Assembly: GCF_037975245.1 (NCBI RefSeq) | Contig: NC_092568.1 | Span: forward strand, 8,319,001-8,383,000 | Length of the DNA stretch: 64,000 nt | Source of the DNA: Apostichopus japonicus | Lineage: Eukaryota > Echinodermata > Holothuroidea > Aspidochirotida > Stichopodidae | Direction: 5' to 3' | Part shown: positions 30,161 through 62,375 of the stretch, piece after piece | Layout of the letters: every line of letters begins with the position of its first letter | Position numbering within the stretch: position 1 is the first letter of the stretch | Program-made: the position numbers and the translations under genes | The notes under the pieces: model-generated | Databases searched by the model: none | Told to the model about the DNA's origin: nothing | Seen by the model: only the letters and a program-made list of their open reading frames with translations

Positions 30161-33100
30161 TTAAGACCTTGAGAGCTTTTCAAAGAATGCTACTTTAAGT
30201 TTAGTCAGCAATCCACCTCTGCCTCTCTTGCTCTTTTTCTGAGTGTTAGTGTTAAATTTAGCAGACTTCTTTGAGCTTGACATGGTTTCAAACATCTTAA
30301 TACGGTTTCTAATATTAAACTTTTTCTTTGGACTATCATTGTAAGACTGAATTGATTCAGGTTGAAGCGGGACAGCTGTTGCATTTCTTATTTCTTCAAA
30401 ATGGAGGATGGTTTCCTTGGTATCACCATGCTCTGGTATCTTTTCATTACTTTCTTTGGCTGCAGAAATCAAGGATTGATTCAGTTTAGGTTGAAGTTGT
30501 TCTTTGCTCACTTTGTTGATCTCTTTAAAATGAAGGATGGTCTCCTTGGTATCACCATGCTCTGGTATCTTTTTGTTATTTGATTTGGCTGCAGGAATCA
30601 AGAAATATTGATTCAGTTCAGGTTGAAGTTGAACTTTGCTCACTTTGTTGATCTCTTCAAAATGGAGGATGGCCTTTTGAACATCCCTATCCTGTTGCAT
30701 CTGCTCATTATCCAGATTGGCTGCAGGAATCAAAGCTGAAGATTTCTCTTCAACTGCAAATTTTTCAAAGAGGTGAACTGCTGAAGACACTGATACATCT
30801 TGGGTGAATGCTGAGATGGTCGGTTGCTTGATGAATGATGTCGAGGAGGTATTGTTGAAGAAGCTGATTTTCTCTGATATGTTCTGACGAGACGGGTCTT
30901 CATATCCACTGGAGACACTGGAGATGCTGAATGTATCATCTAGTGATGAGATGGAGCCTTCGCACCCCAGGGCGGAGTCCTCAGACAAGACTTCATTTTC
31001 ATCTGGCGGGGAAAAAATACTATTCTGACATTCAGTCATATCTTAACTGTTGGATAGTTTATTATATTTTTTATAATTTTTAATATATAATTTATTAATA
31101 TTTTGAAGCAATTTAGATTTTATTGATTTTTTATGATTATTGGGTCAGTGATTTTACCAAACCATAACTCAAAACATGGTAAGAATTGATCAGGCTTTAA
31201 AAGACAGTTGACAAGGTTGTTCCATCATATGAACATTAATTATTGAGTGAATAATGGTTGTTGTTTTTTAGTCCAGATCATTTTTAACATAACACAAAGA
31301 TTACATGCAAAAGAGAAAGGTAAAATTGTTAAATTATTATACCTTCTCTTCTTATTACCTGATGGGAGCTTAGTATCCATATAGTATCATATATTTATAA
31401 TGGTACTAATTCAATCTTAGTTCAGTTCATATTATAGCTGCCTTGCATGTTTGCATTTATGCTGCACCTTGTCAAGCTTGCATAGAATTTTCCAATGTGA
31501 TATCAAGTAAATCCTTCTCTTAAGTGGTATGTAATGTTCCTTTAAGATCATTTGTTTATCCATGCTATTACAATTACTGTGGGTATCTTTACTCTCAACC
31601 CTGACATAGAAATGGTTAATAAGGACTGCATGCAAACTGAGGATTGACTAGCTAATAGTTATTAAGTACATAGGATTTGCATTCATCAGGTCACTGGATT
31701 TGAATCTTACTATAGCCAACAATATCCTTGCATCTTTAAAAATTTGTGAATCATTTCTGTGTCAATTTTCTCTTCATTATTTCTTCTCTGCAGCATAGAC
31801 CATGTCTACTGATTAAGCTATTCTTTATGATATTTCATGAGATTAGGTACATTACTTCAAAATGGATATTAAACCACATCACTAAATATTGGAAGGAGTA
31901 TAAAATATTACTGACCTGAAGGTGTTTCCTCAAACTTTAAATCCCATGTTAAGGGGTATTGTTCCATGGGCCCTGGTGATATGACATCTGCTTGCTGTAA
32001 CTCATCCAGTCCATCACTGGTGCAAGCCACAAATCCTGATCCAGTATCATCTGTTGTATGGTCAATGACGTTGACGTTTTCACAGCTACTTTCTTCGGAG
32101 AAAGTCTCTCTTATATCACTTACAGATGTCTCAACTGTAGGTCCTTGCACATTGGTGGATAATATGCTTGGAATCAACATGTCAGTTAGAGCTGAGGATT
32201 CCTCTTTGTTGTCTTCCTCTGAATCAAGGTTTGATGCGGTTAATTCAGACATTCTTGGGGTAACAGAAATTTCAACTGTAGCATCTTGTACCGTTGGAGG
32301 TGTTTCCTCTTGTTGTGAAATGTTACGAACATGTTCTATGCTGTTGTTTGGAGGAGACGTTGGTTCCATGTAGTCTACGAGTGCCAGTCCCGATTCTCTC
32401 AACTCAGCCAATGGATCATAAGGCCAAGCAAGTTCATCAAGACCTCGATCCAGTGACATCTCCTGGAACATTCCATCAGCCATCATCATCAAAGCTGAGA
32501 GGTTATTCTTTCCTGCTACCTTGGGAAGGGATCTCTTCAGACTCTGACGGACTGAGTACATCAAGTCTGTGTCCAGATGGACAGGTTTCTCAATCTTTAC
32601 TCTAGGCTCTGGTTTCCTCGCTCGAAGTTCTGCCTTCGTCTTGTGTAAATTAACAAGAGCTTCCAGGTATCGGTCACTGATGAACTGTCGTCTCATGCCT
32701 TTAGCAATGCAAGATTCCAAGAGCTCTTCCTTCAGTGTTTTGTTGCATGAAGTGTCATTAGAAGATGAAGAGCTGTTGTGCATTCCATCCTCTGAACACT
32801 GATCACGTTTATACACAGAGGCATTGTTAGCAGCATCTGGGCACCATTCCGGATCAGTTTCAGGGGTGACTTCTTCATCAGATGGTGTTGATCTTACTTC
32901 TCCCACAATTCTTTGTGCCAAATCAGCTGGTTTAACATCTGTTGTCTTGAAAGGAACAGAGTAATTCAGATTATGTACAGATTTCTCACTTGAGAGATCC
33001 GCACAACTTTCTGAATCAACCTCATCCATAACAGTGTCCTTACTTGCTGTTTTCTTGTCATCTGAAAGCTGGTTAAATGAGTCAGCAGAAAGAGAAGAGC

Positions 33101-36100
33101 TGTTGTCCATCCCATCTTCTGAAAGCTGATCAAGATTATACACAGATGCATTGTTAGCAGCATCTGGGCACCATTCCAGATCAGTTTCAGGGGTGACTTC
33201 TTCATCTGATGGTGTTGGATTTACTTCTCCCACACTTCCTCCTTGCTTGAAATAAGCTGGCTTAACATCTGTTGTCTTGAAAGGAATAGAGTAATTCAGA
33301 TTATGTACAGATTTCTCACTTGAGAGATCCAAACACCTTTCTGAAGCAATCTCGTCCACAATAGTGTCCTTACTTGCTGTTTTCTTGTCATCTGAAAGCT
33401 GGTAAGATGTGCCAGCAAATAGAGAAGAGCTGTTGTCCATCCCATCTTCTGAAGTCTGATCAAGATTATACACAGATGCATCGTTAGCAGCATCTGGGCA
33501 CCATTTCAGATCAGTTTCAGGGGTGACTTCTTCATCTGATAGTGTTAGACTTACTTTTTCCACACTTCTTCCTTCTACCACATCAGCTGGTTTAACATCT
33601 ATTGTTATGAGAGGAACAGAGTCATTCAAATTATGTACAGATTCCTCACTTGAGAGATCTGAACACCTTTCTGAAGCAATCTCATCCACAATAGTGTCCA
33701 TACTTGCTGTTTTCTTGTCATCTGAAAGCTGGTAAGATGTGTCAGCAAAAGGAGAAGAGCTGTTGTCCATCCCATCTTCTGAGAGCTGATCAAGGTTATA
33801 CCCAGATGCATTTTTAGCAGCATCTGGGCACCATTCCTGATCAGTTTCAGGGGTGACATCTTCATCTGAAGGTGTTGGTCTTACTTCTCCCACAATTCCT
33901 CTTTGCTCCAAATCAGCTGGTTTAACATCTGTTGTCTTGAGAGGAACAGAGTCTTCCAGATTATGTACAGATTTCTCACTTGTGAGATCTGAACAACTTT
34001 CTGAAGCAGTCTCCTCCACAACAGTGTCCATACTTGCTGTTTTCTTGTCATCTAAAAGCTGGTAAGATGTGTCAGCAAAAGGAGAAGAGCTGTCATCCAT
34101 CCCATCTTTTGAAAGCTGATCAAGGTTATACCCAGATGAGGTATTAGTAGCCCCTTGGTACCTTTCCAGATCATCAGAAGATTTGACAATTCCCTCATCC
34201 TGCATGTTCAAACCAAGATTAAGGACAGGCGTTTCACCCACGCAAGTTTTGGCCAACTGACAATGCGAACGTGGAGACTTCAGCTGACCTCCATTCTCAT
34301 GCGCTGTTGGGTTTTCTTGTGGGAATCTATCAATTACAGGCTTAGATTCTCCAATGATTGAGGAAGGCATGTGAGTATGTTTGTTATCTTCTTTGGAAAT
34401 GTTCACGTTCTCAGTCCCTGAAGGAGTTGATGTATTGACCATAGGCAGTTGTGACTCCGCAGATTTAGTCACAAGTTGGCTTCTGACATTAGACGTTGGT
34501 TCCATGTAATCTACGAGGGCCAGTCCCGATTCTCTCAACTCAGCCAATGGATCATAAGGCCAAGCAAGTTCATCAAGACCTCGATCCAGTGACATCTCCT
34601 GGAACATTCCATCAGCCATCATCATCAAAGCTGAGAGGTTATTCTTTCCTGCTACCTTGGGAAGGGATCTCTTCAGACTCTGACGGACTGAGTACATCAA
34701 GTCAGTGTCCAGATGGACAGGTTTCTCAATCCTTACTCTAGGCTCTGGTTTCCTTGCTTGAAGTTCTGCCTTCGTCTTGTGTAAATTAACAAGAGCGTCC
34801 AGGTATCGGTCACTGATGAACTGTCGTCTCATGCCTTTAGCAATGCAAGATTCCAAGAGCTCTTCCTTCAGTGTTTTGTTGCATGAAGTGTCATCAGAAG
34901 ATGAAGAGCTATTGTCCATTCCATCTTCTGAAAGCTGATCAAGATTATACCCAGATGCATTGTAAGCAGCATTTGGGCACCGTTCCAGATCAGTGTCAGG
35001 GGTGACTTCTTCATCTGATAGTGTTGGACTTACTTCTTCCACAATTCTTTGTGCCAAATCAGCTGGTTTAACATCTATTGTCTTGAAAGGAACAGAGTCG
35101 TCCAAATTATGTACAGATTCCTCACTTGAGAGATCCCAACACCTCTCTGAAGCAATTTTGTCCACAACAGTGTCCATCCCATCTTCTGGCAGCTGATCAA
35201 GGTTATACACAGATGCATTGTTAGCAGCATCTGGGCACCATTCCAGATCAGTTCCAGGGGTGACTTCTTCATCAGATGGTGTTGATCTTACTTCTCCCAC
35301 ACTTCCTACTTCTACCACATCAGCTGGTTTAACATCTGTTGTCTTGAGAGGAACAGAGTCATCCAGATTATGTACAGATTTCTCACTTGAGAGATCTGAA
35401 CACCTTTCTGAAGCAATCTCGTCCACAGCAGTGTCCTTACTTGCTGTTTTCTTGTCATCTGACAGCTGGTTAGATGAGTCAATAGAAAGAGAAGAGCTGT
35501 TGTCCATCCCATCTTCTAAAGGCTGATCAAGATTATACACAGATGCATTGTTAGCAGCATCTGGACACCATTCCTGATCAGTTTCAGGGGTGACTTCTTC
35601 ATCAGATGGTGTTGGACTTACTTCTCCCACAATTCTTTCTTGTTCCAAATCAGCTAGTTTAACATCTGGTGTCCTTGGAGGAACAGAGTCATTCAAAGTA
35701 TGTACAGATTTCTCACTTGAGAGATCTGAACACCTTTCTGAATCAGTCTCATCCATAACAGTGTCCATACTTGCTGTTTTCTTGTCATCTGAATGCTGAC
35801 TAAATGTTTCAGCCAAAGGAGAAGAGCTGTTGTCCATCCCATCTTCTGAAGGCTGATCAAGATTACACCCAGATGTGGTATTAGCAGTATCTGGGCATCT
35901 TTCCTGATCAGAAGATTTGACAGGTCCCTGCATGTACGAACCAAGATTAAGGACAGGCATTTCATCCATCTTAGTTTTGGCCGTCTGACCATGTGAATAT
36001 GGAGACTTCAGTTTCATTCGGTATCTTGCAAATGGGTTTGCAAACTTAGCAAGATCTTCTTCTTCTTCTGAATCTGAGTCCTCATTTTTGTAGGCCATAT

Positions 36101-39100
36101 ACCTAAATATTTTCTTCATCTTCACCTCAGTAAATTCCGTTCCCTTTCTATTACTACCTGATGATTCCTTTTGAGCTTGCTTTTTGCTCTCCTTAATAGA
36201 TGCCAACAGCTCCTTGTAGACATTTGTGTTCCTTCTCTGAGAAACTGGGGCAACATTGCGTCCACTGACATGACGATCGTTTTGTTCGATAACGTCCTTG
36301 AATGTAGTCTGTTGGCAAAGCAAAAGTACCAATAAGTGGCATATTCATATTTTCTTCCCCTTCATAACTTCTACACATCACAACTGATAAGGATAAGGCA
36401 ACTTTTAAATGATGAAGATATTGTATCTGTATCTTTTCAAAGTTTGCCAACAAATCACAGACTTTGATAAGTTGTTCATATGGCATGTCAATTTAACTTA
36501 TTATTTACCTTTTTGTTTTGCCTATACAGTAACACAATTGTCATCAGAATTAACCAAGAATATGCTAGAAAGCCAAATAGTGGTCACTCATTTTTCTGTC
36601 ACTTTCAACACATTGGTACTCTTTTGAATGGTCTAATAGATACCCCCACCCCCGCCCCAGTCCCGCTCAATGCCAGGAATAATTTTTTTTAAAACAGTAC
36701 TTATAGGCAGTACCTTTTCAGCAAACTATAATTTCAGACCATAAACTTACTACATAAGAAAAAATATGGCATACTAGGAAATATAGCAAAAAGTGTCCTT
36801 AAGAGTCCTACAACCTAAAAATAGGGTCATGTGCACAAACTTAGCTTGAGTTAACAAGAATTTTCCGCCTGATTCTGGGAAAAATCAATGCAAATAGTAA
36901 ATTGGACACTTAAATTGTAAAGTAGCTTGTCATATATTTTCACATCTCATCATGTCATCAGTTAACTCTTGAAGGGCTTTGTGACACAAAATGAAATGAG
37001 GTTCATTAGAGTTAACTTTACAAGACATTTCTGTCTGATCCTGGGAGAAATGAATGCAAATGGTTAAAACAGACATTAAGATTGTAAAGTCCTGCGTCAC
37101 ATATTTTCACATTCCATAATTTCATCAAATAACTCTTGTAGACGTTTGAGACAAATATAATGAGATTGACACCTTTTGCTGATTACTTCCTACTAGCAAT
37201 AAATAAAAGTTTTGTCCAAGGCTCAGCTTGCAGATTACTTACCATTGCAGGAGAGGATTTCTCCCCATCAGCTGGTGGGCTCAGCTTTTCTGACTTGACC
37301 ACAACTTTCCGTTGACCAGTTGGTTGAGATGCGGATGTTACAGCAGTGAGATTTGTAGCAACTGCACTGCTAATGCCATCTGGTACTGTAAACCCATGCC
37401 TAGACATGACTCTGTCCATAGAAAGAAATTATCAAATGAACAATTATTAGTCATTAATTCTAATCAACTATTCTAACATTTATTGCTAGGCAAGTATTCT
37501 TCATTTGAGTTTCAAAAAGGGCATGATCATGAAATAGGTCTTACAATATCATCCCTGGAGAATCCTGGATAATAGTATAATCTGCAAATCATTGAAATAG
37601 TGTTGTGTTTTTTTTTTTTTGGGGGGGGGGGGTAATTGCATTGCTAAAAAGAATGGTTCGGTTAACTAATTGATTTTACTGTATATTTCAATGCAATATA
37701 CATAAATGTTAGTGTAATTCAGAAAGCCTGAATAATCTGATTTATGTACAATGAAGAAGAAAGGTATTATTAGAACAACACAACAGTGCTACATCATGAC
37801 CATATCCATTAAAGTAATTAAATGGCTCCAAATATGCTGAAAATGTCATATAACAGTCAGCCATGTTCAGACTACAACATGTACCTAGCTCATTTAGCAT
37901 GGGGGAGTCAGAATTAATTCAGACTGTAGTTTTGGATCAAATTTAAACAAGCTTAATTAGCATGTTAAAAACTTGGGGACAATGCTGATGAGAATGTACT
38001 TTTATTTTAAATTTCTAGAGCAATATGTGAATACAAAACCACTTACTTCTTCATGCACTCATCCAAGAGAGCCCTCAACTCGCTCCTAACATCTTCCCGA
38101 CTTCGACCTCTCAGAGAACGGGTCTTCACCAGCATCATTAGGTTTTGAAACCTTGGATCTGCCACGGACTCCTTCATAAATTCACTGATCTATTATGGAC
38201 AATGAAACCATGAATTGTTAAAAATGACATCATTGAAGATTACCATTGATTACAGTAAGAGTAGACAGTCCCTCTATCATCCCCACAAAGAACTTACTTT
38301 CTACCCACTTCACTCTCTTCTGATTACAGGGTATAAATCTGTGCAATTGTGCATCAGCTTGGCAGATTTCTATAGCAACTTTGGCATGCAAAAGTGTACC
38401 AAAAATGTATTTAATTCTTGGAAATAGGAATTTTTTTTAAAAGAAACCACACACAACCACTCCTAGTGGCAATAGAATGCCTTGCAAAATTGAAGTTCAT
38501 CAAAACACCATGCAATTGTTACAGAATTAACAGTATTTTAGTTATTAATATTCTTTTTTATTTTATTGGCATGTTTTTTTTTTTTGGGGGGGGGGGGGGT
38601 TAATGAGGTCGGCAGAGAAGGATCAGATTGACTTAAAAGACTGTTGGGTATGAGTCTAAGTTAAAGGCTCAAATCAACTTTGCATCAAATGGTACCTACA
38701 AGAAAATGGTACCAGATTTAACTTAGAATATATGTCTTAAAGATCAGAATGATTGAAAGACTGTTCTTATTGACAATTGCCTTTCTGGTCTCATTATATA
38801 TTTCCACAAAAACTCTCAATTTTGAGTAAAATATTACTTTGATGTACGTGGTAGGGCATATATCAGTACCACATAAATTAAGTCAAGCCTGTCACTACCT
38901 AGCCTACACTTGCTATCCTTAGCCTGCTACCCCCCCCCCCAGCCTCCCCTGCACACACAAAAGCCACTCTCCACTGCTTCCCATCTATTTTAAAATCATG
39001 GCACTAAGTGTAAACATTTCAACCATGCACACAAAAGTCAAATTTATTTATTTGAAAGGCATAAATCCATGCAAATATGTAATATTCTAAAAAATGTAAT

Positions 39101-44361: not shown

Positions 44362-47300
44362 CTAGGTCTTGTCCTGTTTTTCATTCACATCAACTGCTAA
44401 ACTTTGCTGGAAACAAGAAGAAAAAAATGAAGGTTATTTACAAAAATAATAATAATAATAATTAATTAACAGTTCTTATATAGCGCAACTTACAATAAAG
44501 TCTTGCCGCGCTGTACTTAACCTTGGTCATTGGTAACTTGTCACACCTACACACCAAAGTGTGCAAAATTCAAACAATCTCTCCTGGGGCACCACAGTGC
44601 ACCACAGCCACATGTCCCCTGGGGGACTTCCCATAGGGTGCAGCCACAAACCGGCGCACGCAACTATATTTACAAGTCAGTGAAATCACCTCGCAAGTCC
44701 TCATTTATACACCTGGGAAAAGAGAGGCAATGGAGATAAAGTGCCTTGCCCAAGGAAACAACGCAATGATCTGGCCAGGGCTCGAACCTGTAATCCTTAG
44801 ATCACAAGTCCACTGCCTTAACCACTTGACCACAATGCCCAAAAATGAGCAAGGATCTTCTTCTATACTACATCAATCCAGGTCATAGATGATGATCTAA
44901 TTACCCTTAAATCTCATTTGTCTTCTCTCTAAATTTAGCATGTCTTACCAAAATTTGAATTAAAGTTTCAAAAGAGCTCTGCAAAGCAAGAAACAAATGC
45001 TCTTAGGGTGGCAGTAAAATGCATGTTGATTTGTGAACATTAGTGACCATTATTGTGACTTTTTAGCAGATTTTGGGGTGATATTACTGATGACCTTAAA
45101 GCAAGAATCACGCAGGGTTGGGAAAGGCTTCAAGGTTAATGATGATAAAACATACTCAAGAATGACAGCATCAAATGGGAACATCATCTACTTTATTGCA
45201 GTGACAGAACTTTGGTGAAATTTTAACAAAGCCACTTGAACATGATAATCCTTGAGACCAATATTTGTGACTTTTAATATCAATGAAGTTTAAAAGTATA
45301 CACAATTTTTTATGAGGTAAGAGTAGGTACCTGTGCTTCGAAAGGATAGGAATATGAACCAGGGGATTATGGGAAGTGGATCGAAATGATATTAGCTTTG
45401 TCATAACAGAAATATTTTGAAGGTATTGTCAGTTTGGGGTATACTATATCATTGTAAAAATCATTTTGGACTATCTAGCATAGCATTGGGAATAAGTTAA
45501 ACTGTTCTGCATAGACAATCGATGTATTGAGTGTTCTGTGACTCTCAGCCTGCTGACTGAACACCACCCGACTCAACCTTTATAACATGGATATTTGAGG
45601 ATATCCCGGTAATGTGCATGTGCTTAAGGTTATGCCTAATCAGGTATTTGCCAGTTTTCAGTTGTCTGCTTCATTCGTGGAAATTCAACTCGTCGTGTTT
45701 CCCCGAATGCATTTGATCTAAAACAGGCATTGGTTGTTAAAAAAACAGTTGTTGTGTTTGCTCGTCAGTCTTTTAGTATGTGCTGATCAGTTGTAACACT
45801 ATCGGTATTCACAAGGTAAAAAAAAACTCGGCCATGACAGTCAAGTTGAGTTGGGTCAAATGTGGCGTACTATGTCCGGCTAAAATACACTACAAATTCT
45901 TACATTTTCTTTCTCAATCTCCTTCACCTCAGCTTTCCTCTCCACTCTCGGACTCTTCAAGACAGCCTTGGCTAAGGGATTATCTGCTGGCATCGCCACA
46001 TCCATATCTGGTGGCGGTCTCTTCAGAGGCTTAGGGTACGGAGGAAGCTGGCCCTTTGTTTTCGGATTCAAGTCTTGTTGTTTCTAAAAAATAAAATGCA
46101 AAACTTAATGAAATTTTGTACACCTCTGAGTCTTCTGACTTCCTGTTTGCAAAATTTAACAATGAAAAGAAAATAAGTGAAACTATTCACAGATCACACT
46201 TGAACTATGAACCTCATAATGTACTAGACTTCAAAGGGGCAGGCTTAAATAAACACGTTTCCTAGCATTTTGGTCATCATCAAGTCATGCCTAGTTATAC
46301 TTTGTAACATAGTCCCTTTTAAAAAATTTCACCAATATAACTTCAACAATACCTAGACAGAAATTTCAAAATTATTTGTGAAAATATCCTACAGAAGAAT
46401 CTCTTCAATATTAAATAATTTCACTTTTTTTGTTGTTGACCCTTTTGAACTTACTTCTTTCGGCAATTCTGTTGGTGGCTTGTCTGGGTTGCCATGGACA
46501 ACAACCATCTGTACCAATGCTTTCTTGCAAGTCATCCGTAGCCGTTTATTGATACCATCCATGAGAGTTTCCCCAAACAATCTCTTGAAGGCTTTCCTAA
46601 TCAGTGCCATATCGACCTGTAAATGAAAAACAAAACGAGTTTAAATGAGTACATAACACCGTAGCAACCCACCTGATGGAACTAAATAATGACAAAAAGG
46701 TTACTTTGATAAAATGGCCACAAAGTTTCAAACATTTCAAAGAGTGTTTGTATCAACATTTTTAACTTTACAAGTTTTAGCCTGTGGAAAAATTTCATCA
46801 TTTTTGGACAACCTTTGTCTTCCCAAATTTTGATGGTGACGTAAACTGGGCAAAAAAGTCTTCGACGAACTTTGGTTCCATGAAATGATGTTTTTCAGTC
46901 CCTTTAATTTGAACATGTTTGGATTATTGGGCTGTGACAGTTTTGTTGTCTGAACATTTTTTCTCTTTGAAGAGACAAAGGCAATTGAAGTAATACACTA
47001 ACGTGCATATTGAAATTGTATCGATGATAGAAATCCCAACTTAAATATCATCACAGAATGAAGGCAAACAAAATATTTAAATTTCATTTAACATATTGTT
47101 ACATCACATTACCCCAACTGCAGTTTGTCCGATATTATTAGATGTGTTAGACTGAATATTGAATATGCAGTTTTCAAAATTGTACTTTCTCCGAAAGAAA
47201 TGAAATCATCAAAGAATGAAGCAATTACAAGTTGCTTTAACAATTTCATGAGATAAAACAATGATCTACAAAAGAAAAAGAAAAAAGTGGTACTGACCTC

Positions 47301-50300
47301 TGACCTCATGATAATTATGCGCATAACTGTCTCTTCGTCACCGCTTGCTTGGAGATTTACCTGTATCTGCTCGGCAAGGAATTGAGGGCAATCACTCAAA
47401 CATTTCACTGAAATTTGAAATCGAACAAAGATAGATTGAATATAAAAAAAGTGTAATCTCTAATGCTTAAAGTTCATCTTTGACTGTTATATATGTATCA
47501 GTAAGGGAAATATCTTTGATGCTTGCATAAAGATGCTTGTTGAAGTGTTCGTAAGAGTGGCCATTACTGGACCGTCTAGCAAACTTGGGGCAATATTGAT
47601 GATCTCAAATGAAAAGCTTTATATTTTAATAGATGATATTGTAGGCATTCGTAGGAAAAAACATAAACATTTTCTCGTCATTTGATGCAATTTCAACAAA
47701 ATCTTGATCAAAGTAAGAAACCCTACAAGATTTCTTTTATGAAATCAAAATCAACTGGAGATTTAAATTTAATCTTGCCAAAGCACTTTTCCCCAAAAGT
47801 CTTGATCACAAATCAATAACATTCAGAATGGTCCTTATTATTTCAAATTTAGTTAGTCTAAGTAATTGTATTGTTTTATTAGTCTAGTTATCAAACAGTA
47901 TCAAAATAATCTAAGAGCCATTTTTGTGCATATGTTGACAGTGACTACTAAACAGGATTGCAAAGTGAGCTGTGGTAATTATACTCACCCAATGAGACCA
48001 TAGCATCACGGTAGTCTGCCACGAGCAACCTCTCAATCTCCTCCAGAGAGCTTTTACCAGTTATCTGTTTTCAGGGAAACCAAAAGCAAATGATTAACAT
48101 AATTTGCCAAATATTACAGAATGAAAGAAATGCAAGCTGTTGATGTCCATCAACAGATGTAAGAAAGGAGAAAAAAACAAATCCAAGTTGGTTAGCAGTG
48201 AAAATTGTCACTGTATGCCAAATTAAATTGAAGAATTAGTGTTAGAAAAACCTTGCTAAATTTCCTCCAAATTTGCTCACTAGTATATGCAACTTCCTGC
48301 TATTGTTTGCAAAGCAGAAAACAGAGCACACCAAATACATACAGGTTAAACAAGCATGACAAAAAAAAAGTAGGGATGTTCCTCCTTTTTAAATTGGTCC
48401 AAAAATGAATATAGAATAAAGGGCTAAAAAATGTTAACAATAAAACTTTCAATGTGACATCCACAAAACATAGCTCTCTCTCTACAAGGTAATAATGTTA
48501 CCTGTTCATAATTGTGCAGGACAGTTACGATATGACTCCAGCTTGCTGTCTGTAGTAACTCAGCCATTTTTCCAGAATCTGCATTCCAACGGTCTTCTTC
48601 TTGGGTTGCTATCAGCTGCTCGGTGTCTTTATCAGCTGTTTCTTTGTCAATACTTGTAGATTCTGATCTGGTACCCTAAACAAGGAAATATGGATTGATT
48701 AAATCACCGTTTCCATTCACAACAAAATCAATAAATGCACCACTACAAGCAGGGCATTAATCAAAAACAGGAAATAATGGGTCTTGTATGTGAATTTGGT
48801 ATCCCTGCTCAAGGGAGGAATCCAATGCAAGGGTCGGATGGTGGGGGGAGGGGGGGGGAGTGTTTTCTTGATTGCAAGTTCTCACATGCATATGGTATCG
48901 ATTTTCAGCTTTGAAATGTAACTTCATTGACACAATATTGTTTTGGTGCATGTCTATAATCCAGCCATACAACATTATTTGTTTCATTACAATGACAGAA
49001 CAATGCCTACTCACTTAAACAATGTTATCTCTTCACTACTGCATAATGTTGCCTAAAACCCACAATGACCATATGATATTGAAGGACATTTTACATTCTC
49101 TTAATAAAGGAACATATACTGAATTATCCATACAAAGAAGTATTTAAAACAAGTAGTCTTACCTTCACTATGGCAAGAAGCAAGTATCTCAGCTGACCTT
49201 TGACCTCTGCTTTAATATCCTCCTCAAGCTCTATGCTGTATTTTGTTGCATAAGCTGACCTTATTGCACCTAACGCCTGTTAGTGAAGAGAGTGTTACAG
49301 ACATGCGTAATGTTTTATCTAAACATATATGTATATATAGCACTAACAATAGCAGGACTTGTAACAGACACGCAGAAATGCCCCCTCGACATGATTAAAT
49401 GCGTAAAAGTACCAGCAAATGCAAGATTTCCTAAGTTACTCACAAATCATGCAGTTCTAGTTTAAGTTTTAAGAAAGTGAGTTTCAAAATTTACAGTAAT
49501 TAACTAGAACATACTGATTAGAGTGACCACAATTTACATCAACATCTACATTTATGTGTCAAAAAAATTTCAGAACAAGAACAAACTATAAAAAAAGGCT
49601 ATAGACACAGACTGTACTGCCCAGACCGAAACCACCATCCACAATGTCTTAAATCAATTCATCCCACTTTCTCTCCATGCTAACACCAACCCCCCCCCCA
49701 CCCCCACCTGTAAATTAATATTATTTTCTGTATCACCTTCATCTAGGTACATCTCATGCCTCACCATCATGGAGAGTACTGCATCTTCTTGAATGCATAG
49801 AGAAATATAGAAGAAAAATTAATTTCTTTGCTGAGAACTTACCCCATTGTTTCTTGTACATAATACCTCAACCAAGGTTTCTGTAAAAGGCCCTTGACCC
49901 TGAAAACAAAAAGGAACAAATACTTTCAGGAAATGTATTACCACAAAATGTCTGCTATGTATTGGGACTTGTATTCAAAGAGGTAGTATAGTAAAGCTAA
50001 GACATATTCTTTATGGGGGCAAATTATCAATAATAAGCTGTGTTTGAATTGACAATATCCATTAGACCTCTCTGTGAAGAAGCAGTCTTTATTCAAACTT
50101 CGGATTGATGAGTACGGGTGATGGTGTAGTAACTATTACGATTCTTACGATACAAAGAAATCACATTGAAACAATACCATGACATTTACTGTTTAAAACC
50201 CTTCTGAAGATTAGCTTTCTTTTCTTTGTAAAAAATTGTCCTGAACAGATCAATACCACGTTGGTAACTGTTAACTTAGAAAATGGGACCACAAGATGGT

Positions 50301-53300
50301 CGATATTCACCCCTAGACATTAGGAAAACAATTTGGGGTTGTGTGTGGGGGGGCCAATGAATGCTATGTGGTTTATTAAGATTTGGAGTTGCAAGTTGAC
50401 CACCAAAAGAGAGGGGCAAATGACTTTTTGGTGCTTGGAATTAAGTATTTGGGGTTGAAAGTAGACAATAACCAAAGAAAAATGGTTGTATTGACTAAAT
50501 TTTACATCAGGAAATGTTCATGGAGTGGGGGGAGGTAAATTTCTGTTTCATATCTTTGCCCTAAATTGATTTCATTCCAGGATTTTAATTGTCCCAATAA
50601 AGGTTAATAAACATGGTTTGTCGGGGTCAATGAAGGATCAAGAAATTCCATAAATGTATCAACACCTGGTTTAGAATCTTTCTGAAGATTAAGTATTTCT
50701 CCTTCTCAAGAAACTTTTCTCTACATACATAGTTTACAAAAGACAACGGTCGTAACGAAGGAAAACAGTAAAAACCTCAACTATGTTTATAAATTTTTAA
50801 AAGAGAAAAATTTATATTAAAAAAAAAAAAAAAAAATTTTTGTAAAAAAGAACATTGATGAATATTTTATGAAATTGTGTGAGCAAATAACAAACAAGGA
50901 AAACAAACCTTGAGAGCAGAATGGATGGACATGGCATCATAATCCTGTCTGCTGGTCAGCAGAGCTGAGGTCAATGTCTGGAAGTCATCATCTAGCTGGG
51001 AAGACAACTCCTCCTCAAGATTCTGGAAATAAATATTGATCTTGTTTAAAGGGTGTGAAGACTCGTGCAAAATGAAACGTCTAATGCCGGTTATCTGACC
51101 TAGTTTCGAATGAGGTGTAACAGAAGTGTTAGACACCACCATCGATCCCAGAAAATACACTCACAGCTTGCTATCGTCGGTAATTAGACACTAGTGTGCA
51201 TACAGTACATACAGCTGGGGTTAATACCCACAGCACAGTGTACAAACGGGATGGACATCTCAGGTCCAGCTAAAGATAACAAGGTATCACTTTTCATTAC
51301 TGTCTGCATTTTGTAGCGACAAGAACAAAACGTCACTTGCAAGCAACAAAAAGTTAACTTTTTCAGATGGCAGCACGCGGTTTGGGGCGAGTCTTCAATA
51401 CCTTTAAAGATCACATCAATACTGGCCACAAATTTTCATTCACTAACGGTTCACTAAGATCTTGTATCAAAAGTGTGTTCGTGGATGTTTCTGACCATCC
51501 AAATGATTAAATTACATTTCGGAAGGTTAAGTTAGAATATTAAAATAGTTCAATCAAAGGAAATGTTATTTAGGTTGGTGTTTAACTTCTTGGTTGAATT
51601 TGGAAACATGGTTTTTCATAATCGTGTTAGTCATAATAAACTTCAAATCAAACACACCCATTCCCCTCCCCCACCCCCCCCCAACCCCCGTCCTGTGAAG
51701 TGCTGATATTTACCAACAGGCAAGAAACATTTTGAATAGCACACTCCACAAAGGTACTTATTAGCCATGTTATCACACACACACGTTTACTGACTACTGA
51801 ACAGTTAATTCCATACAACAGAGGTAAATTTACATCTGTGGACACAAACAATGTTTTCCTGAATTAAGTCTACACACTTACCAGACCAAACTGTTCTTCA
51901 AATTTGACTTTGGTCTGCTGTCTCTGTGAAAACTTTCTTTTGGCTAAAGTATTAGTTACGACTACTTCGGGTTTTCCTGTTGAAAATAAAACAAAGGAAA
52001 GAAATCAACATCTTCCTTTTCCCTTCTTGTAGTTGGTGGGCTTGGTAATATGATGAACCACATGCAGGATGTGAGCAACAAGGGGTCAGAATAATGACCC
52101 CCTCCCCCCCCCTCACAGCATTTCCCACCTCCTTCCTCATTCCAGAATGAAATGATTCATGTACCACACAAAGATCAAGGTGCTCAAAATGTTACAATGC
52201 AAACACTTCTCCTGTAAAATTTGTTGAACATTTTTTATTGTTTAAAAATATATTTCATGAGCATTTTTTGGGGATAACTTTAAATAACTTTAAATTTCTG
52301 AACCACCACTTTTAAGTAAAAGCTCCATGAGACAATGGATACTAAGACACAACATTACTCACCCATGCCTTTGGTTGCCTTAAAGAGTTTCACAGCTTCA
52401 TCTTTCTCGTCATAATGCGCAGCTTTGGCAGCAGCTTCTTTCTGTACGAAAAAAAAAGAAATAACAGAGGCTAGCTGCATAAAGGGAAACAAAATAGACA
52501 AATCCTTCAGCTTTCTGAACTAAGAAAGACAAAGGTAAGCAGACCCCCCTCCCCCCAACACTAGGGGGAAGGGAAATCCATGTATCCCGTATAAGTTTTA
52601 CAGCAATGAGTTTCTGGGGGAACAGGATTGAACATTGGTCGGAATCTTGCCACCCTCCTCCCCCTCCCATACTCCCCAATTACAAACATGTGTACAGCTG
52701 TAGGGGTTTTCCTGGCAAGGGAGACTGATGTTGTATTATTAATATGTGCAGTGGCAGAACTTCTGAGGTCAAGTTTATGTCATACAACTCACCCTCAAGT
52801 GTTCAGGTGAGCATAGATAACATATATTGTTAGATCATAACTAATATACAGTAATGAATATATCTTTGTGTTTAGTATAGTCATAGATCTTAAGTGTTAA
52901 ATCATAACTAATATAATGAATATATCTTTGTTTTTAGTATAGTTATAGATCTCAGGTGTTAGATCATAACTAATATAATGAATATATCTTTGTTTTTAGT
53001 ATAGTTATAGATCTCAGGTGTTAGATCATAACTAATATAATGAATATATCTTTGTGTTAAGTATAGTTATAGATCTCAGGTGTTAGATCATAACTAATAT
53101 AATGAATATATCTTTGTTTTTAGTATAGTTATAGATCTCAGGTGTTAGATCATAACTAATATAATGAATATATCTTTGTTTTTAGTATAGTCATAGATCT
53201 CAGGTGTTAGATCATAACTTATATAATGAATATATAATTTGTATTTATGAGTGATGAATTCACTGTCAACAGTTCAACCATGCTCATCCAAATTCTTTCC

Positions 53301-56300
53301 AATATCATTGTAAATAATCTAATGTGGGATTTCAGTTTGCAAAAGATTTGCACAACACTATTTAGTTTTAACACTCCTTTTACCTTTTTCCTTTCTAGTT
53401 CTTTCTTCCTCTCTGTTCCGAGAACTGGTAACCGTGGCAGCCTCCGCCTTCTGGTTTTGACAGGTCTTTTTGAGATTTTTAGTTCATCCTAAAATAAACA
53501 CCCACACAAGAAGCAAAAAGGAGACACAGAATGTTATCAGCGACAGAAAAAAAGGTAATTAATTTGACATTCTTGATAGTATTGTATTCTTACCGGACTG
53601 AAACTCTGTTGTTGCTAAGGGGATAATAAATTGTCTCCCAGCAACTAAGAAATCTCAACAGGGTTCTCAGCACTTTTTTTATCTTTCCATTGTAATGATG
53701 TTTATAACAAACATCTACAATTATTAATTATCCGTTCAATAAAGCACACATTAAAATATCTGGGTTTCTTTCTGACTTCAACAACTTCGTATCAAGAATA
53801 TTGCAAAGCCCACTTCTGGATACAGTGGTGATTCCTTGGGTGTGTGATTTTCTTTCGCGATGAACGTTAATTGTAAGCAATATGGTGGATACAAAGGGCA
53901 GTGTAACAAACACAAGCATTATTGAACGAGTTGTAACAATAGTTTCCATATGTGTCCCCATCACAACAAGACAGTATTTGACATTTTCATATCTTTTTTT
54001 TCCTTTCTTTTAGAGAAGGGTCTGTGACGATGTAAAGTTTGATATAAACTAAGAGATAACAATATATGTAAATCTACAGTCTGTCCTCATTATTTACAAA
54101 CTAATCAAATTTCTTCTGTAAGCTCTCATTAAGGGATTCATTCAAGGACATGTTGATTGAACAAACAAGAGAAGCCAAACAGAACAAAACATAGAAAAAC
54201 AACTGTGCTGTGCCACATCCTAATTACTATCGTTTTGTTCAATTCTTGGATGGACGTATCTGTGCATCAGAAATACACACTATTGTACACTTAAAAGGTA
54301 TTGCCCCCAAGTATGCTAGAAAGTCGGATAATGGCCACCCTTGCTTAAAATTTCAAGAACAAAACAAAGCATTTTAATGCCTCTAAAAGTATTTATCACC
54401 ACTGAGGCACAAAATTGTCTGTTTAAATAATCTTAAATGTCTGGGACTAATGTAGAGGACCAGAGAGTCAAGGAAAGGACTATTGAAAACATCTAGCATT
54501 TTTTGGGGGGGGGGGGGGGAGAGAGGAGGTGGACTATGACATATTAACACTATATCTGCATGTGATGTATTTTAGGGATAATATGTTGCTAATATCTATG
54601 TCTTTGTTTCTGAGTTATGAAAATTTGGTATGTGCATTTCCCACTACCCACCCCCCCCCCCCTCCCCCATATACATCAAAACAAGTTTGCTTTTTAATGT
54701 TTCTTACCATATTTGGCATTCTATCGTCATCATTAATAGATTTCTCTGAAACAGCTGCTTGAGAAGGGGCAAGATTGGAACTGGTCTCTCCTATAGTTGA
54801 TACCTTGTCATAGTGAGCTCTCTTTTGAGTGATAAAGGAAAGAAGAAAGAAAATTAAACATGAATAGATCTTAACTTCATAACAGAGAGGATCGCTCTCC
54901 ATATGAATTAGTCAGGAAACGTGTTTATTCTATTCCTATCAATGTGTGCTAGCTGTGACAGTATTAATATCTAGTGATAATCTAATAACATGCATAGCAG
55001 CCATTGTTATATAAAACAACTAATTCTGATGTTGTTTAATTAATCCTTCTTTTAAAGTTTTAGAGATATAATATTCACCGTTTTTCTTTTATGCCTGTCT
55101 TCTGCGTAATAAAATAGAGCCTCTTGCTCGTTCATTCCCCGAACATCCAACTGAAAGTTCTTTGTAGCACTGTCTTTCAGTTCCAAGAAGTAGTTATGCA
55201 TTAAATATTCATCCTCCTGGGAAGTTGAAAACAAAAGGTAAAATTATGGATTAAATGACATACTTTAACTGTAGTTTTTTTGTTCGTTTGCCCGTGTTCA
55301 AACTGTTGATCTCCAACAATTCGACAATGCTTGCATACCTTCGACCAATCACATCAACAAAGAGCAGAACTGCACGACTAACTACGACTCAAATCAACTA
55401 AACGATTGTGAGCTGCATAATTGTGGATATTACTGCAGTTTGAACGAGCTTACAACTACAAATGATTACTATGTAGCCAGTCGTTAAGTGGAGTTTGATT
55501 CAGTATGGTAAAACACAACAGGTTTTTCAAACAGGCTATCTGCATTGGTAGTCAAATGTGCAGTTTTGTTCCTGGCTACAACTGCTCAGTTTCAACAAAT
55601 ATAACCGATCAGTGAGAAATATTTTTTACACATAGCCTATCCCAGCACCAGTCACACAACACAGCATGTTCAGAGTCCACTCGCCAGTCATTCATCGTGC
55701 TGGAAGTTAGCTGTACATACCAACATGGGTCTTGAGGACTACCAAAAAACTGGATAGATCATATGACAGTTCAGTGCACAATGTGTTTTTCTCAGTCTTC
55801 TTCAGGCTAAATTATTTGACCCACTTGAGGTGATCAACTAATTTTTGTCTCACAAACTTCGAACCTTCCATTGATACTATAAACATGTTTCCAAGAAAAA
55901 AATATGTTTTGGTACGTTCAAAGTTTCTACTGTGCGTCATGGACAAAAACTCTAAGTTTGCCAAATCCAATTACAACCTGCCCAAACTTACCCACTCATC
56001 AGTATCATAGTGTGATGACCTATTCTGCAACCTCTTCAGCAGCTTCTGATTTTCTTCCTGGATTTTCTCCTTCTCATCGTTAAGCTTAAGCTCGTTAAGA
56101 CTGTCGGTAAGATGAATGAATTAAGAGGGGTCAAATACATTTGTACCACAAAAGGAAGGGCCGCCAACTAAAATAAGCTGAGCTAACCGTATAACTTATA
56201 GAAAACTGACTTGTAAGTTATAAACAAAATTTTACAGACATATACTGTAAAATCATATAAAAAAGACATATAAAATCAAATTAATTTTTCAAGTTAATTT

Positions 56301-57495
56301 TGCCTTTTGTTGACCAGAACAAATCAGAGGAAATATCTCTATGGTAAAAACTGACCTTAATAAGGCTTTAAACATTTATATTACTTTGTTCTCATTTGAG
56401 TATGTAAGTATATTACAAACTCACTAATATCCGTTTCAATATAGCCTGCCATTTGTCTCTACCTTTGAAGATACATTCTTAATGGTATCTTGCTTGGGGT
56501 AACTACCCCCTGTTGTTTCCCTCAAAATTGTTGTTAAACAAGGACTTAACATTTTCAGGTAGTACTCCTATGTATATAATATACTCACCTCTTTGAATGA
56601 AGTTCATAATCATAATTCCAATTGTCCAGTTGTCCCGTTGACCTCAAAACATTTGTCAATTTGGCCAGTAGGATTCTATTTTCATAGTCTATTGAAGCTT
56701 GTCTTTCTTCTTCACTCTGGAACAGTAGTTACAAAATTTATTTTATGAATCAAGCATGAGACAACACATAAGTGGACAAACAGCATACATAATTCCTTCA
56801 AATTTCCAGATAAATCCTCGGGCCACAGATCCCCAATGTTGCAGCTTGTTGCACCATTTCGGTCTTTACTACGTAGAGCAGATCTACTTTACATGTTCCC
56901 AAAAATCTTTCAATATTATTGCTCTGATATGACTTTCTGGCAAACTTGCAAAATATATATCTGTGATTTTAAATTTGGCCAAAGCTGGATTCATGAGTAA
57001 TTTACAAAACCTGGGTTTGGATAAGAAAACAAATTCTTAGTTCTTATTGCAAACAGTATACAAAAAAAATCACAATATTACAATAACATGTTTACATGAT
57101 TGAAACTCACCTGCATTTTCTTCAAATTTACTTTTAGATGTAAAAATGATTTTGGCTTCTTAGTATCTAGCCCTGATCTCATTGCCTTTTTCTGAAAATT
57201 AGGAAAAAGATTATTTGAAGACATTTAAACTTACAAATCAACACACACACAAAAATTGAATAACATATATAGGGAAGAGTATAATTTTGGCAAATAATTT
57301 AAGTTAACAATTACCTTCTATCAGCCTAACTTTAGGTTAGGTCAGTCTAATATTAAACCTTACTAACTACTAATACTATTAGTAACAGTTACTGTGTTAG
57401 AGTTAATTTTGGCCTACCTTCTTTACGTGTAGCTCATATGCTCTCTGGTTCCACCTTTTCTGCAAGATGTTATTAGCTGTTGGAAATCCTGGCAT
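44362..57495 (-). CDS. CFAP97-domain/annexin fusion protein, 18 exons, about 652 residues
   Basis: Exons 5' to 3': 57418-57495, 57111-57191, 56589-56716, 55992-56100, 55079-55216, 54708-54821, 53384-53488, 52363-52441, 51882-51976, 50909-51022, 49843-49899, 49163-49276, 48502-48675, 47989-48064, 47298-47407, 46455-46616, 45904-46083, 44362-44406. All splice borders and phases agree. Residues 1-132 form a CFAP97 domain (RQASIDYENRILLAKL, HSKSLNELKLNDEKEKIQ, EENQKLLKRLQ), a family found in ciliary and sperm-tail proteins. Residues about 252-578 form four annexin repeats, for example DEAVKLFKATKGMG, DDDFQTLTSALLTSRQDYDA, TLVEVLCTRNNG and DEETVMRIIIMRSEVDMALIRKAF. The type II Ca2+ loop G-x-G-T of repeat 1 reads GMGK, so Ca2+ binding may be weakened. 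The tail is Pro/Lys-rich. An in-frame ATG ten codons upstream (57525) has a poorer context. It may link membranes to the axoneme; this is inference. Confidence 0.88.
44441..44845 (-). mobile_element. tRNA-derived SINE
   Basis: On the minus strand the head (44845 to about 44762) is tRNA-like. It has an A-box-like GTGGTCAAGTGGTTAAGGC and a B box GGTTCGAGCCC (44778-44788). The body follows, and a 3' tail of (ATT)n ends at about 44446. The head most resembles tRNA-Ser-type sequence, but it is not a functional tRNA because the stems do not pair cleanly. It lies in the last intron of the CFAP97-annexin gene, tail first, about 40 nt from the acceptor of the final exon. Confidence 0.85.
51046..51407 (+). 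mobile_element. TTAA-flanked MITE, copy C (in CFAP97-annexin intron)
   Basis: 362 bp with ends TTAAAGGGTGTGAAGACTCG and, inverted, TTAAAGGTATTGAAGACTCG. The interior is the same as copies A, B and D. Its left end is 23 nt from the acceptor of the annexin exon at 50909-51022, so the element supplies sequence next to, and perhaps including, the branch-point region. Confidence 0.88.
52830..53240. repeat. 62-bp tandem repeat, about 6.5 copies, in CFAP97-annexin intron
   Basis: Starts of 'TTAGATCATAACTAATATAA' fall at about 52830, 52897, 52959, 53021, 53083, 53145 and 53207. The spacing is 62 bp after a slightly longer first unit. Copies are nearly identical, AT-rich and carry GATC/AGATCT sites. 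It lies between the exons at 52441 and 53384 with no coding frame. Confidence 0.93.
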
Positions 57496-58320: not shown

Positions 58321-58354
58321 TATGGCAAGCCGTTTTAACATTTTCCTCTCTATT

Positions 58355-58775
58355 CTACTTAAGTAGAATTAATTCCACTTAAGTAGAATACAATTAAGCT
58401 TAAGTGAAATGAATTGCACTTAAGTAGAATTGCATTTTACTTAAGCTTAATTGTATTCCACTTAAGTGGAATTCATATTAGCTTAAGTTCAAACGGTTTT
58501 TGTCTACATCGTATTTTACTTAAGTAAAATACAATTCTACTTAAGTAAAATACAATTCTGCTTAAGTAAAATTCAATTCTACTTAAGTAAAATGCATTCT
58601 GCTTAAGTAAATTCAATTCTACTTAAGTAAAATGCTATTCTACTTAAGCAAAATGGCTTTTCAATTTCACTTAAGCTAAATTGCATTTTACTTAAGTGAA
58701 ATAGAATTACGCTTAAGTGAAATGTGATTGGTCAATTTATTTCACTTAAGTAAAATGCAATTTAGCTTAAGTGAA
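58355..58775. repeat. CTTAAG-palindrome array, left
   Basis: Units of about 18-24 bp in the pattern TTYACTTAAGTRAA or TTTAGCTTAAGTGAAA, separated by short ATTGCATT or ATTGTATT-like spacers. Nineteen CTTAAG cores are counted in about 420 bp. The inner end carries two copies of GTGATTGGTCAAT (about 58723 and 58777), an inverted CCAAT-box-like motif. Confidence 0.9.
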
Positions 58776-59689
58776 ATGTGATTGGTCAATCAGTATGCTA
58801 CTCATTGCGTCACTGTACTTGCCGCGAAGTCCGACTTTGTATACTATTATAGGTACCTCGCCAAGTGTTCATCCGCTCAATAGGTTAACCATTGTCAGAA
58901 AAGAGGTAAAAGTACATAACGTAAAGCTTGTTTAAGCATGTTATCATTTACTGTCATCGTTTTTTCTGCCTTTATATGAAAGAGCATAATTTTAAGTACA
59001 GATGGTGTGAAAATAGGGAGGATCGAAGGTGATATAAACCATTTTAAAAATCTTTGGTTAAATGTTGATATTACTCCGAACGAGCATATGGAAGGGTTCA
59101 GTGTGATAAACTTGCTCCTCTTCTAGCTCATAATCTAAACGGTCATGATATGGAAGTTTGCAATTGCCATGATAGGCCAAGAACACAGCTATCATGTGGT
59201 GGGTAGAATATACCAGATGAAAACTTCTATCTATGCTTTGGCAGGTCTTGAAAGTGACGAGTTTAGTGTGTAAGTCAATGGAACAATTAATTGTGATGCG
59301 AGACCTATAGAGTTACGTTCAAGACGTACTAGTTACGTAACCATTTGCGGCCATTCCCCCATACTGCGATACTTTTCCAGCGTCCGTTGTGTATATACGA
59401 ACATAACACCATACTTATCCTTATCAAATGAAGCAAAGCTATGTTTATCACTGAGTCTGAACGTTAGACATTTGGTAAATGCAGCCAGCCAATAAATCGT
59501 TGCAAACTGTTGCTGATGCAGTTGGAACTTTTGAGGGCAAGGGAACAACTACAACACGACATACCACCAAGCAGTGGTACTAGTAGTAGAAGTACCACAA
59601 GGCATGGCACCATGTGAACATTGCCCCCAGACCAATCACTTCTCCGCACGACGTAAATGTTATAACGGCTTGCCATATCCTTCAATTCC

Positions 59690-60120
59690 ACTTAAGCTAA
59701 ATTGTATTTTATTTAAGTAGAATTGAATTTTACTTAAGTAAAATGCAATAGTATTCTACTTAAGTAAAATACAATTCTACTTAAGTAGAACACAATTTAG
59801 CTTAAGTTAAATTCAATTTCACTTAAGCTTAATTGTATTCTACTAAAGTAAAATACAATTTTACTTAAGTAAAATTCATTTAGCTTAAGTGAAAAAGAAT
59901 GACATTTTTACTTAAGCTAAATTCAATTTTACTTAAGTAGAATTGCATTTTACTTAAGTAGAATACAATTAAGCTTAAGTGAAATTGAATTTAACTTAAG
60001 CTTAAAAGAAAGTGGTAATTTTACTTAAGTGGAATACAATTAAACTTAAGTAAAATGCAATTCTACTTAAGTGCAATTAATTTCACTTAAGCTTAATTGT
60101 ATTCTACTTAAGTGGAATTG
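59690..60120. repeat. CTTAAG-palindrome array, right
   Basis: Same unit type as the left array, eighteen CTTAAG cores by eye plus several one-base variants such as ATTTAAG and CTAAAG. The variants show that copies are decaying around a shared palindromic core. Confidence 0.9.
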
Positions 60121-60175: not shown

Positions 60176-62375
60176 GCTCCCTGGTTAGAGCTGGTCTATG
60201 GCGGACCATCTGTATCAGATTTATACTTGCATTTTAAAATGACATAGACCAGTCGATTCCCCGTGACCTGAAACAGATGCCTACCCACACGCCCCTATGC
60301 TGGTAAGGGTAACTAGTGTGCAAGGAGAATTTCGTTGGGGCATCCCGCTGAGGACCCAAAAAGTTAGGCTTTTTTTCCTGCCCGAAAGGGGTACATTAAT
60401 AGATCAACATGACTTGTGTGGACGAATTTCAATACCGTGTACGCACGCACCAACTTTCCTTTGGAAGTTAATACGCATATCATTCATTCATTTTAATAGA
60501 TCATGAAGTTCGTAGGTGTTCTCGTTCCTTCCTTGTATTTCTAGGTTTGCAGTTATATTACCTTGTATTCAAATAACTTAATGTTTGCGTTTGGTTAACA
60601 AGTTTATCAAATGTAGAGAAATAGAAATTGACTAAGCTTAAAATACCGTACCTGTAGATGAATGTAGTGAGCAAGTTATGAAATTTAATCTATTTTCTAC
60701 ATTCCGTCGCCCTGATACATGCCATATTAGTATTAATAACATATAAATACTAAATTAGAAAACTTTCTATTTCTATCAGTCGCAGATTCATGGGATGTGG
60801 GGTGTTACCCCCCCCCCCATCCCACCCACCCACACACAAACACAAATATTAATAGTATTAGTTATTTAACTATTTTTAAACCTCATTTATAGCCTACATA
60901 TGCTTCAGAATGCACAGTTTCACGTTTAGTTTTTCTTTCCTTTATTGTCTTGGGAGGGGAGGGAAAGTCCCCAGATCCCCCTACAAGGGTCTCGGCTACA
61001 CCGACCGTTAGGAGTACACCCCTCCTTTTGAAATTCCTGGATACGTCTCCTTCTGTTTTCGTTTACTATATGGAGTGAACGTTGACTTAAAGGGAGTGAA
61101 GACTCGCGCACAAAGAAACGTCTGATGACGGTTATCTGACCTAGTTTCGAATGAGGTGTAACAGAAGTGTGAGACAGCACCATCGATCCCAGAAATTGCA
61201 CACACACCTTGCTACCGTCGGTACTTAGACACTAGTGTACAGTCAGTACATACAGCTGCGGTCAATACCCACAACACAGTGTACATAGCAGCGAATAGCG
61301 ATGGACATCTCAGGTCCAGATAAAAGATAACAAGGTATCATATTTCATTACTGTCTGCATTTTGTAGCGACAAGAAAAAAAACTTCACTTGAAAGCAACG
61401 GAAAGTTAACTTTTTCAGAGGGCTGCACGCGGTTTGGGGCGAGTCTTCAATGCCTTTAAGTCAAATCGCGATGAAATAATTATTCCATTCGACTAAATAT
61501 ATCGTCACCACTGCAGACATTTTGCCATATAATTAATAATTACATGCAGATATCATAGGCCTATGTAGGAGTGTTCCAGTATTTCCGACTTTTTCTACCT
61601 TGTTTGAAGTGAGATTTAATTTATTCAGGTCAACGACCTGCATGTATTTGATTTTGTTGGTATCGAATATGATTCACCAAAAGCTTGTAACACGCTCAGG
61701 AACAACGGGATTTATGTTTGGACGGTCAAAACAGTTGATAAGAAAATGTTTACAAGTAGAAATTGGTGGCGCTCATCCTAAACAGCGTACGGTTCCTGTA
61801 TATGCGCTATAGGAAAAACGAAGGTTACCACCGCTCGAAATCGGAAATTTCGAACTTTTCCGACTTTTACACATCATTTAGATAGTGAAATTTGACGTTT
61901 TGTTCGCCTTTGAATGTCATTACTATCAGATGTTATAGCCTCAAGCGGTAACGTATCGAAATTAAATAATATCAAACAATAACTGCTCTAACAAATATTT
62001 GACAGGTCATTTATTATGTAACGATGTAGAATTTACTTTTATCAATTTGGGCATTTGATAGATACATTTTGATCGATTTATCTGTGCGATGAGGAAATTA
62101 CCACAACGTGACAACGAGGTGATTATAGCGGCGTTTTACACGGGGAACAGCCACGTCCCCATACGTCTCTTTGCATTGTGCGCTTATCGCGCGCGTAAGC
62201 CGCGCGTGGTCTTCATGAGTCTGTAACGCATTTGCGTTAATTGTGCGTTTTGGCGTCCTACTTTTTGAAAGATCAGCTGCGTGTCAATAAACAATGGGGA
62301 TATTATTTTTCAAATGATTTTGTTTATAGCTTCAAACCTGCAAGTTGACTCAGCCTATAAGCTGGTGTTTTCAAA
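60176..62375. other. Intergenic region between the foldback element and the right-hand gene
   Basis: Contains MITE copy D and a C-run near 60809. A CpG-richer stretch at about 62130-62260 (repeated GCGC and CGCG) probably belongs to the promoter of the plus-strand gene starting at 62376. The ORFs here are short and without domains. Confidence 0.45.
61087..61459 (+). mobile_element. TTAA-flanked MITE, copy D (intergenic)
   Basis: 373 bp with ends TTAAAGGGAGTGAAGACTCG and, inverted, TTAAAGGCATTGAAGACTCG. It has TTAA at both edges and shares its interior with copies A-C. A small insertion near 61290 (GCGAATA) separates it from the others. Confidence 0.88.

Follow-up and report, generated by a model that had tools for sequence, protein, structure and literature searches.

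A predicted sea cucumber gene that joins a CFAP97 domain to a four-repeat annexin core without type II calcium loops

CFAP97D1 is a protein of the outer surface of sperm doublet microtubules, where it goes together with TSSK6 and EFCAB3; TSSK6 lies outside the seam and its loss removes both CFAP97D1 and EFCAB3 (PMC13066092, PMC11779644, PMC13406575). Family members in mouse and fly are needed for the integrity of the doublet (PMC7444823, PMC10425847). Annexins have also been placed in flagella, namely alpha-14 giardin and annexins 3 and 12 of Spironucleus, and Spironucleus annexin 13, in which all four type II sites are lost and a further domain is present, was seen in an anterior structure and not in flagella (PMC4863580). 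Here we describe a predicted gene of the sea cucumber Apostichopus japonicus that would bring the two families together. It lies in a stretch of 64,000 nucleotides, hereafter the window (NC_092568.1, positions 8,319,001-8,383,000, labelled G000:C8 in our genome searches), to which all coordinates below refer, and its reading frame leads from an N-terminal CFAP97 domain into a complete four-repeat annexin core whose type II calcium loops have all been lost.

The joined frame runs from 57495 to 44362 on the minus strand and comprises 18 exons (Table 1), 1959 nucleotides and 652 codons for amino acids, with a single stop at its end. GT-AG borders are present at 17 of 17 introns and the exon phases are compatible throughout; the 18 exons with agreeing borders and phases that a first-pass annotation of this DNA had proposed were all reproduced, each in its place. 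Its proposal that a CFAP97 domain and a full annexin core belong to one predicted protein also held, both Pfam domains being found in the single frame. Hmw_CFAP97 occupies residues 23-121 (E 5.6e-18, 66 bits, profile positions 1-100 of 100) and Annexin matches four stretches (E 5.2e-41, 139 bits), so that the profile search of the joined translation, suggested as a check, placed both models above their curated cut-offs of 25.6 and 25 bits, respectively. Lysine and arginine make up 21 of the 82 residues of the linker between the halves and 17 of the 86 residues of the C-terminal tail; proline accounts for 15 of those 86. Being basic, and in the case of the tail proline-rich, these two segments would be well suited to touching tubulin or acidic lipids.

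The N-terminal half resembles the solved CFAP97 (Hemingway) and CFAP97D1 chains in its domain and in its N-terminal layout. It matched five chains named CFAP97 (8snb, 2.8e-26; 9v10, 5.9e-17; 8otz, 1.1e-16; 9e2g, 1.4e-10; 9e78, 1.4e-8), the best being sea urchin sperm CFAP97 in 8snb, aligned over residues 2-143, followed by CFAP97D1 in 9v10 and 8otz; 8snb and 8otz are structures of sperm doublets (PMC13066092). Unlike these chains, which are 158-231 amino acids long, the predicted protein continues for about 500 amino acids after the domain, the annexin core included. All three introns inside the domain (introns 1, 2 and 3) agree in position and phase with those of a CFAP97 paralogue on contig C10 of the same genome, and a paralogue on contig C15 has just one of them in common (exon 3/4, phase 2), as judged by eye from the printed flanks. 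Scored against the sea urchin chain of 8snb, the C15 gene reaches 244 bits over 139 amino acids, the C10 gene 191 bits and the fused gene 96. By this measure the fused gene is a more divergent, extra member of the family, and the sea urchin protein has its closer counterpart in the C15 gene.

The C-terminal half is most similar, among solved proteins, to annexin VI (1m9i; phmmer, across the core). It has the four repeats, the length and the order of an annexin, and five of its introns (intron 8, phase 1 within the loop glycine, and introns 9, 10, 13 and 15) have the same position and phase as introns of some other annexins in the genome, again by eye from printed flanks. It differs from them in an extra intron between exons 11 and 12 (intron 11), unseen in the other annexins compared, and in the CFAP97 part, which replaces the short head that usually forms the annexin N-terminus. 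A further difference concerns the calcium loops. The motif G-x-G-T-[DE] is present in none of the four repeats and nowhere in the 652-residue protein: in repeats 1 to 4 the corresponding loops are GMGKP, GQGPF, RWNAD and ASGDE, against GFGSD, GIGTD, KWGTD and GLGTR in the first core of annexin VI. The cap residues are Q, E, L and R, compared with E, D, E and D in annexin VI, leaving an acidic cap only in repeat 2. Among 29 other annexin segments of the genome (those of the 33 listed outside the gene that had a locus), a looser G-T-[D/E/N/K] occurs in 21, and seven of the remaining eight are second repeat halves without the loop region. The first-pass annotation had noted that the loop of repeat 1 lacks its threonine (GMGK), which is true but understates the change, as all four type II loops are gone. 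On these residues we class the protein as an annexin by descent and not as a Ca2+-binding annexin.

Whether the two halves form one gene depends on exons 6 and 7, which connect them. We scored candidate exons by codon usage, trained on 28 other segments of the genome with 1111 codons in all (five of 33 were dropped for stops), and by splice matrices drawn from 14 other introns of the same gene, which are hence not independent of it. Stop-free intron stretches scoring at least as high as the exon numbered 3 of 838 for exon 6, 0 of 1007 for exon 7 and 0 of 1805 for exon 8. The codon measure also misses some true exons or scores them weakly, namely exon 11 (1713 of 2729, which is background), exon 2 (257 of 1696) and exon 18 (423 of 3633). 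In a ranking of the 626 exon candidates that lie between exons 5 and 8, whatever their phase, exon 6 came first and exon 7 twelfth; of the 11 ahead of exon 7, eight overlap exon 6 and the other three overlap exon 7 with a different frame or length, so that all fall on one of the two exons. Both exons are phase 0-0, as the joined frame requires, and among the 72 candidates of that class exon 6 is first (18.1) and exon 7 third (10.9). In the 14 other introns, taken as a control, 0 of 147 phase 0-0 candidates reach the score of either exon. Exon 6 clearly looks coding, and exon 7 less clearly so because its acceptor is poor; the connection between the halves exceeds chance expectation, with uneven strength along its length. 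From this evidence it is likely that the locus is one gene, transcribed as a single mRNA.

Several observations weigh against this reading. The acceptor of exon 7 stands at only the 63rd percentile of AG sites in the locus. Phase 0-0 candidates as good as exon 7 also turn up outside the gene: 2 of 137 in the upstream flank (57.7-63.9 kb), where none reaches exon 6, and 12 of 176 in the downstream stretch (36.0-44.3 kb), where four of the 176 reach exon 6; the latter stretch probably holds real exons of another gene, because it overlaps an open frame of 1477 amino acids. Annexin pieces on contigs C1 and C6 are uninterrupted at the places of introns 13 and 15. In addition, a tiny initiating annexin exon would be compatible with the sequence.

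The alternative that survives best keeps the join and gives the locus two products, the fusion together with either a shorter annexin starting at an inner start codon or a CFAP97-only form that ends in intron 5. An ATG at 54902 does open a frame leading into exon 6, reading through exon 5 reaches a stop after KRKTVNIISLKL, and an AATAAA lies at 54929. Yet these are sequence possibilities only, and AATAAA or ATTAAA is frequent by chance in AT-rich introns (a general expectation and not a computed rate), which leaves this arrangement rather unlikely, if worth bearing in mind. We consider it improbable that the prediction merely joins a CFAP97D gene to an adjacent but separate, degenerate annexin gene on the same strand. 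The shortness of the five solved CFAP97 chains and the weak exon 7 acceptor would fit such a pair; moreover, annexin genes often begin with tiny exons, which are hard to find. However, among 143 terminal-exon and 65 first-exon candidates between the halves, none made a convincing end or start of a separate gene. The top terminal exon after exon 5 (9.8) is the DNA of exon 7 read in a different frame, and its acceptor scores -3.4. The top two first exons (9.7 and 6.8) share the reading frame of exon 6 and begin upstream of or within it, which means that the exon 6 end would still be used; the third scores 4.3. The common phase of exons 6 and 7 likewise fits the joined frame.

If the halves do form one protein, the question becomes what the annexin part does. 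With all four loops lost, a Ca2+-independent scaffold is likelier than a Ca2+ switch: the core probably acts without Ca2+, and binding to membranes under a Ca2+ switch is unlikely. An axonemal membrane tether controlled by Ca2+, for which the complete four-repeat core and the flagellar Spironucleus annexins 3 and 12, with their canonical loops and, for annexin 3, binding of phospholipids (PMC4863580), could be cited, is therefore quite improbable here, given the absent loop motif and the single acidic cap. Least probable of all is an annexin half that is decaying without a role, which the loss of all Ca2+ loops and the strong sequence divergence of this half from the remaining genomic annexins (best match elsewhere, E 0.77) would fit, but which sits poorly with 18 exons free of frameshifts and premature stops and with codon scores that, for eight of the nine exons 8-16 (exon 11 excepted), are matched by six null stretches at most.

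The explanation we favor, though with moderate confidence as a whole, is that one fused gene encodes an axoneme-docked, Ca2+-independent annexin scaffold. The N-terminal CFAP97 domain would dock on the outside of doublet microtubules, the basic linker would space it from the annexin core, and the C-terminal annexin could then sit between doublet and membrane, where the loop-less core might serve as a rigid Ca2+-independent scaffold holding another axonemal, tubulin or membrane partner. The first-pass annotation had imagined an annexin membrane- or Ca2+-binding unit on the axoneme or sperm tail. Of this, placement on the axoneme is plausible because CFAP97D1 is an outer-surface doublet protein, while the Ca2+-binding unit does not fit four decayed loops. 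By analogy with these relatives, docking of the fused protein on the doublet seems somewhat more probable than its absence. Two things tell against this part of the explanation: docking by a divergent CFAP97 copy is carried over from its relatives, and the annexins located in flagella, Spironucleus 3 and 12, are ones that keep their Ca2+ loops.

As to its origin, a CFAP97D-type gene may have become fused, by way of introns, with an old annexin gene that already had introns, ahead of the exon that opens repeat 1. The intron places held in common with the CFAP97 paralogue on the one side and with some annexins on the other suggest that both halves retain old introns. Genome-wide searches of the assembly (671,581,487 bases in 35 contigs) gave no second fused copy when the whole protein was used and the best candidates were scored: of the 20 matches listed, 17 were its own exons, and the rest were CFAP97 exons on C15 (3.1e-9) and C10 (0.098) and an annexin piece on C6 (0.77). 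The annexin search returned at least 34 matches, 33 of them outside the gene, on C1, C6, C9 and C19. The CFAP97 search returned at least four matches, among which the window's own exons were unlisted, with the other CFAP97 matches on C10, C14 and C15; none of the annexin matches listed lies on these three contigs. No relatives were found in prokaryote genomes or viral contigs, where 52 and 23 stretches, respectively, matched the pattern and none was confirmed by tblastn, as expected for an animal gene. Nor was a CFAP97-annexin architecture found in print among open-licence papers, searched chiefly by title; papers naming CFAP97 together with annexin were unrelated, judging by title and the start of the abstract. 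The domain order, the single frame and the early view that this domain architecture is unusual are supported.

Table 1. Exons of the predicted fused gene, in order of transcription
Feature	Coordinates	Strand	Content and support
Exon 1	57418..57495	-	N-terminus of the CFAP97 part, residues 1-26, with the start codon; its intron matches the C10 CFAP97 paralogue in place and phase
Exon 2	57111..57191	-	Residues 27-53, CFAP97 domain (Pfam; intron comparison)
Exon 3	56589..56716	-	CFAP97 domain, ENRILL stretch (Pfam; genome match; intron comparison)
Exon 4	55992..56100	-	End of CFAP97 domain, SLN...ENQ (Pfam; intron comparison)
Exon 5	55079..55216	-	Residues 133-178, past the CFAP97 domain; match to sea urchin sperm-doublet CFAP97 extends to residue 143
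Exon 6	54708..54821	-	Linker, residues 179-216; ranked first among the 626 candidates located between exons 5 and 8
Exon 7	53384..53488	-	Linker, residues 217-251, basic (RRRR, KKELERKK), with a weak acceptor; 12th of 626 candidates
Exon 8	52363..52441	-	First helix of annexin repeat 1; phase 1 end within the AB-loop Gly, as in other annexins of the genome
Exon 9	51882..51976	-	Annexin repeat 1, GMGKPE loop (Pfam; loop comparison)
Exon 10	50909..51022	-	Annexin repeat 1 to 2 (Pfam)
Exon 11	49843..49899	-	Annexin repeat 2, GQGPFT loop (Pfam); codon score at background
Exon 12	49163..49276	-	Annexin repeat 2; sole piece of the locus listed in the genome-wide annexin search
Exon 13	48502..48675	-	Repeat 2-3 linker and repeat 3, RWNADS loop (Pfam; annexin VI alignment)
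Exon 14	47989..48064	-	Annexin repeat 3 (Pfam)
Exon 15	47298..47407	-	Annexin repeat 4, ASGDEE loop (Pfam; annexin VI alignment)
Exon 16	46455..46616	-	End of annexin core (Pfam)
Exon 17	45904..46083	-	C-terminal tail, proline-rich and basic
Exon 18	44362..44406	-	Tail and stop codon; short, weak codon score

Repeats occur in and around the gene. A 62-base tandem repeat of 6.7 copies (52828-53247) lies within intron 7, which separates linker exon 7 from exon 8. Two arrays based on ACTTAAGT stand just upstream of the gene (58352-58790 and 59681-60000), the second extending to the end of the scanned stretch. A dispersed repeat with related open frames, recognized by eye, is found at 14362-14652 (+), 50867-51160 (-) and 60929-61231 (-), one copy being in intron 9. 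Elsewhere in the window are an intronless frame for a rhodopsin-type G protein-coupled receptor (6775-7875, +; 367 amino acids; Pfam 7tm_1, E 5.7e-38) and pieces of a PARP1-like gene (17675-17884 and 26776-27036, -), with a PADR1 zinc ribbon (6.2e-17) and a partial PARP zinc finger (3.8e-7) that falls below the cut-off. The 1477-amino-acid open frame mentioned above (31914-36344, -) has no Pfam match at E 0.001, and the frames there look internally repeated by eye. In the wider assembly, contig C35 (16,099 bases) is a mitochondrial genome, in which COX1 translates well under the echinoderm code; its genes, named by eye apart from the rRNA, run COX1, ND4L, COX2 ... CYTB, followed on the same strand by ND1, ND2 and the large rRNA, an order that agrees with those of sea urchins and sea cucumbers. 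Five further COX1 matches fall on contig C29 (31,219 bases), which probably consists of mitochondrial copies or is a mis-assembled concatemer.

The diplomonad annexins offer a partial parallel to the sea cucumber gene. Flagellar location is described for alpha-14 giardin and annexins 3 and 12, and annexin 13 combines lost loops with an added domain; however, the flagellar ones retain their loops, the loop-less one was not seen in flagella, and the available part of that account mentions no CFAP97 domain (PMC4863580). We infer that the diplomonad annexins and the fused gene arose independently. The apical-organ table for Nematostella includes a KIAA1430/C17orf105 gene, and sea urchin AnnexinA (SPU_019139) is a candidate counterpart only (PMC4300403). 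More tentatively, the fused protein could be a conserved axoneme component of echinoderms in which an annexin core released from Ca2+ was attached to a docking module of the outer doublet surface, linking that surface permanently to the ciliary membrane or to an adjacent complex, with the sea urchin annexin expressed in apical tuft and ciliary bands as a possible counterpart; at present we consider this doubtful.

To our knowledge, the ties of the axoneme to the membrane and to side complexes are still poorly known. The flagellar annexins that we found described are those of protists, and such a link becomes testable with an animal gene that couples an annexin physically with a domain for docking on doublets. 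The locus also offers a clear example of gene joining, with introns retained from each of the two parent genes. If transcripts confirm the joined frame, it would encode a new sort of axoneme protein.

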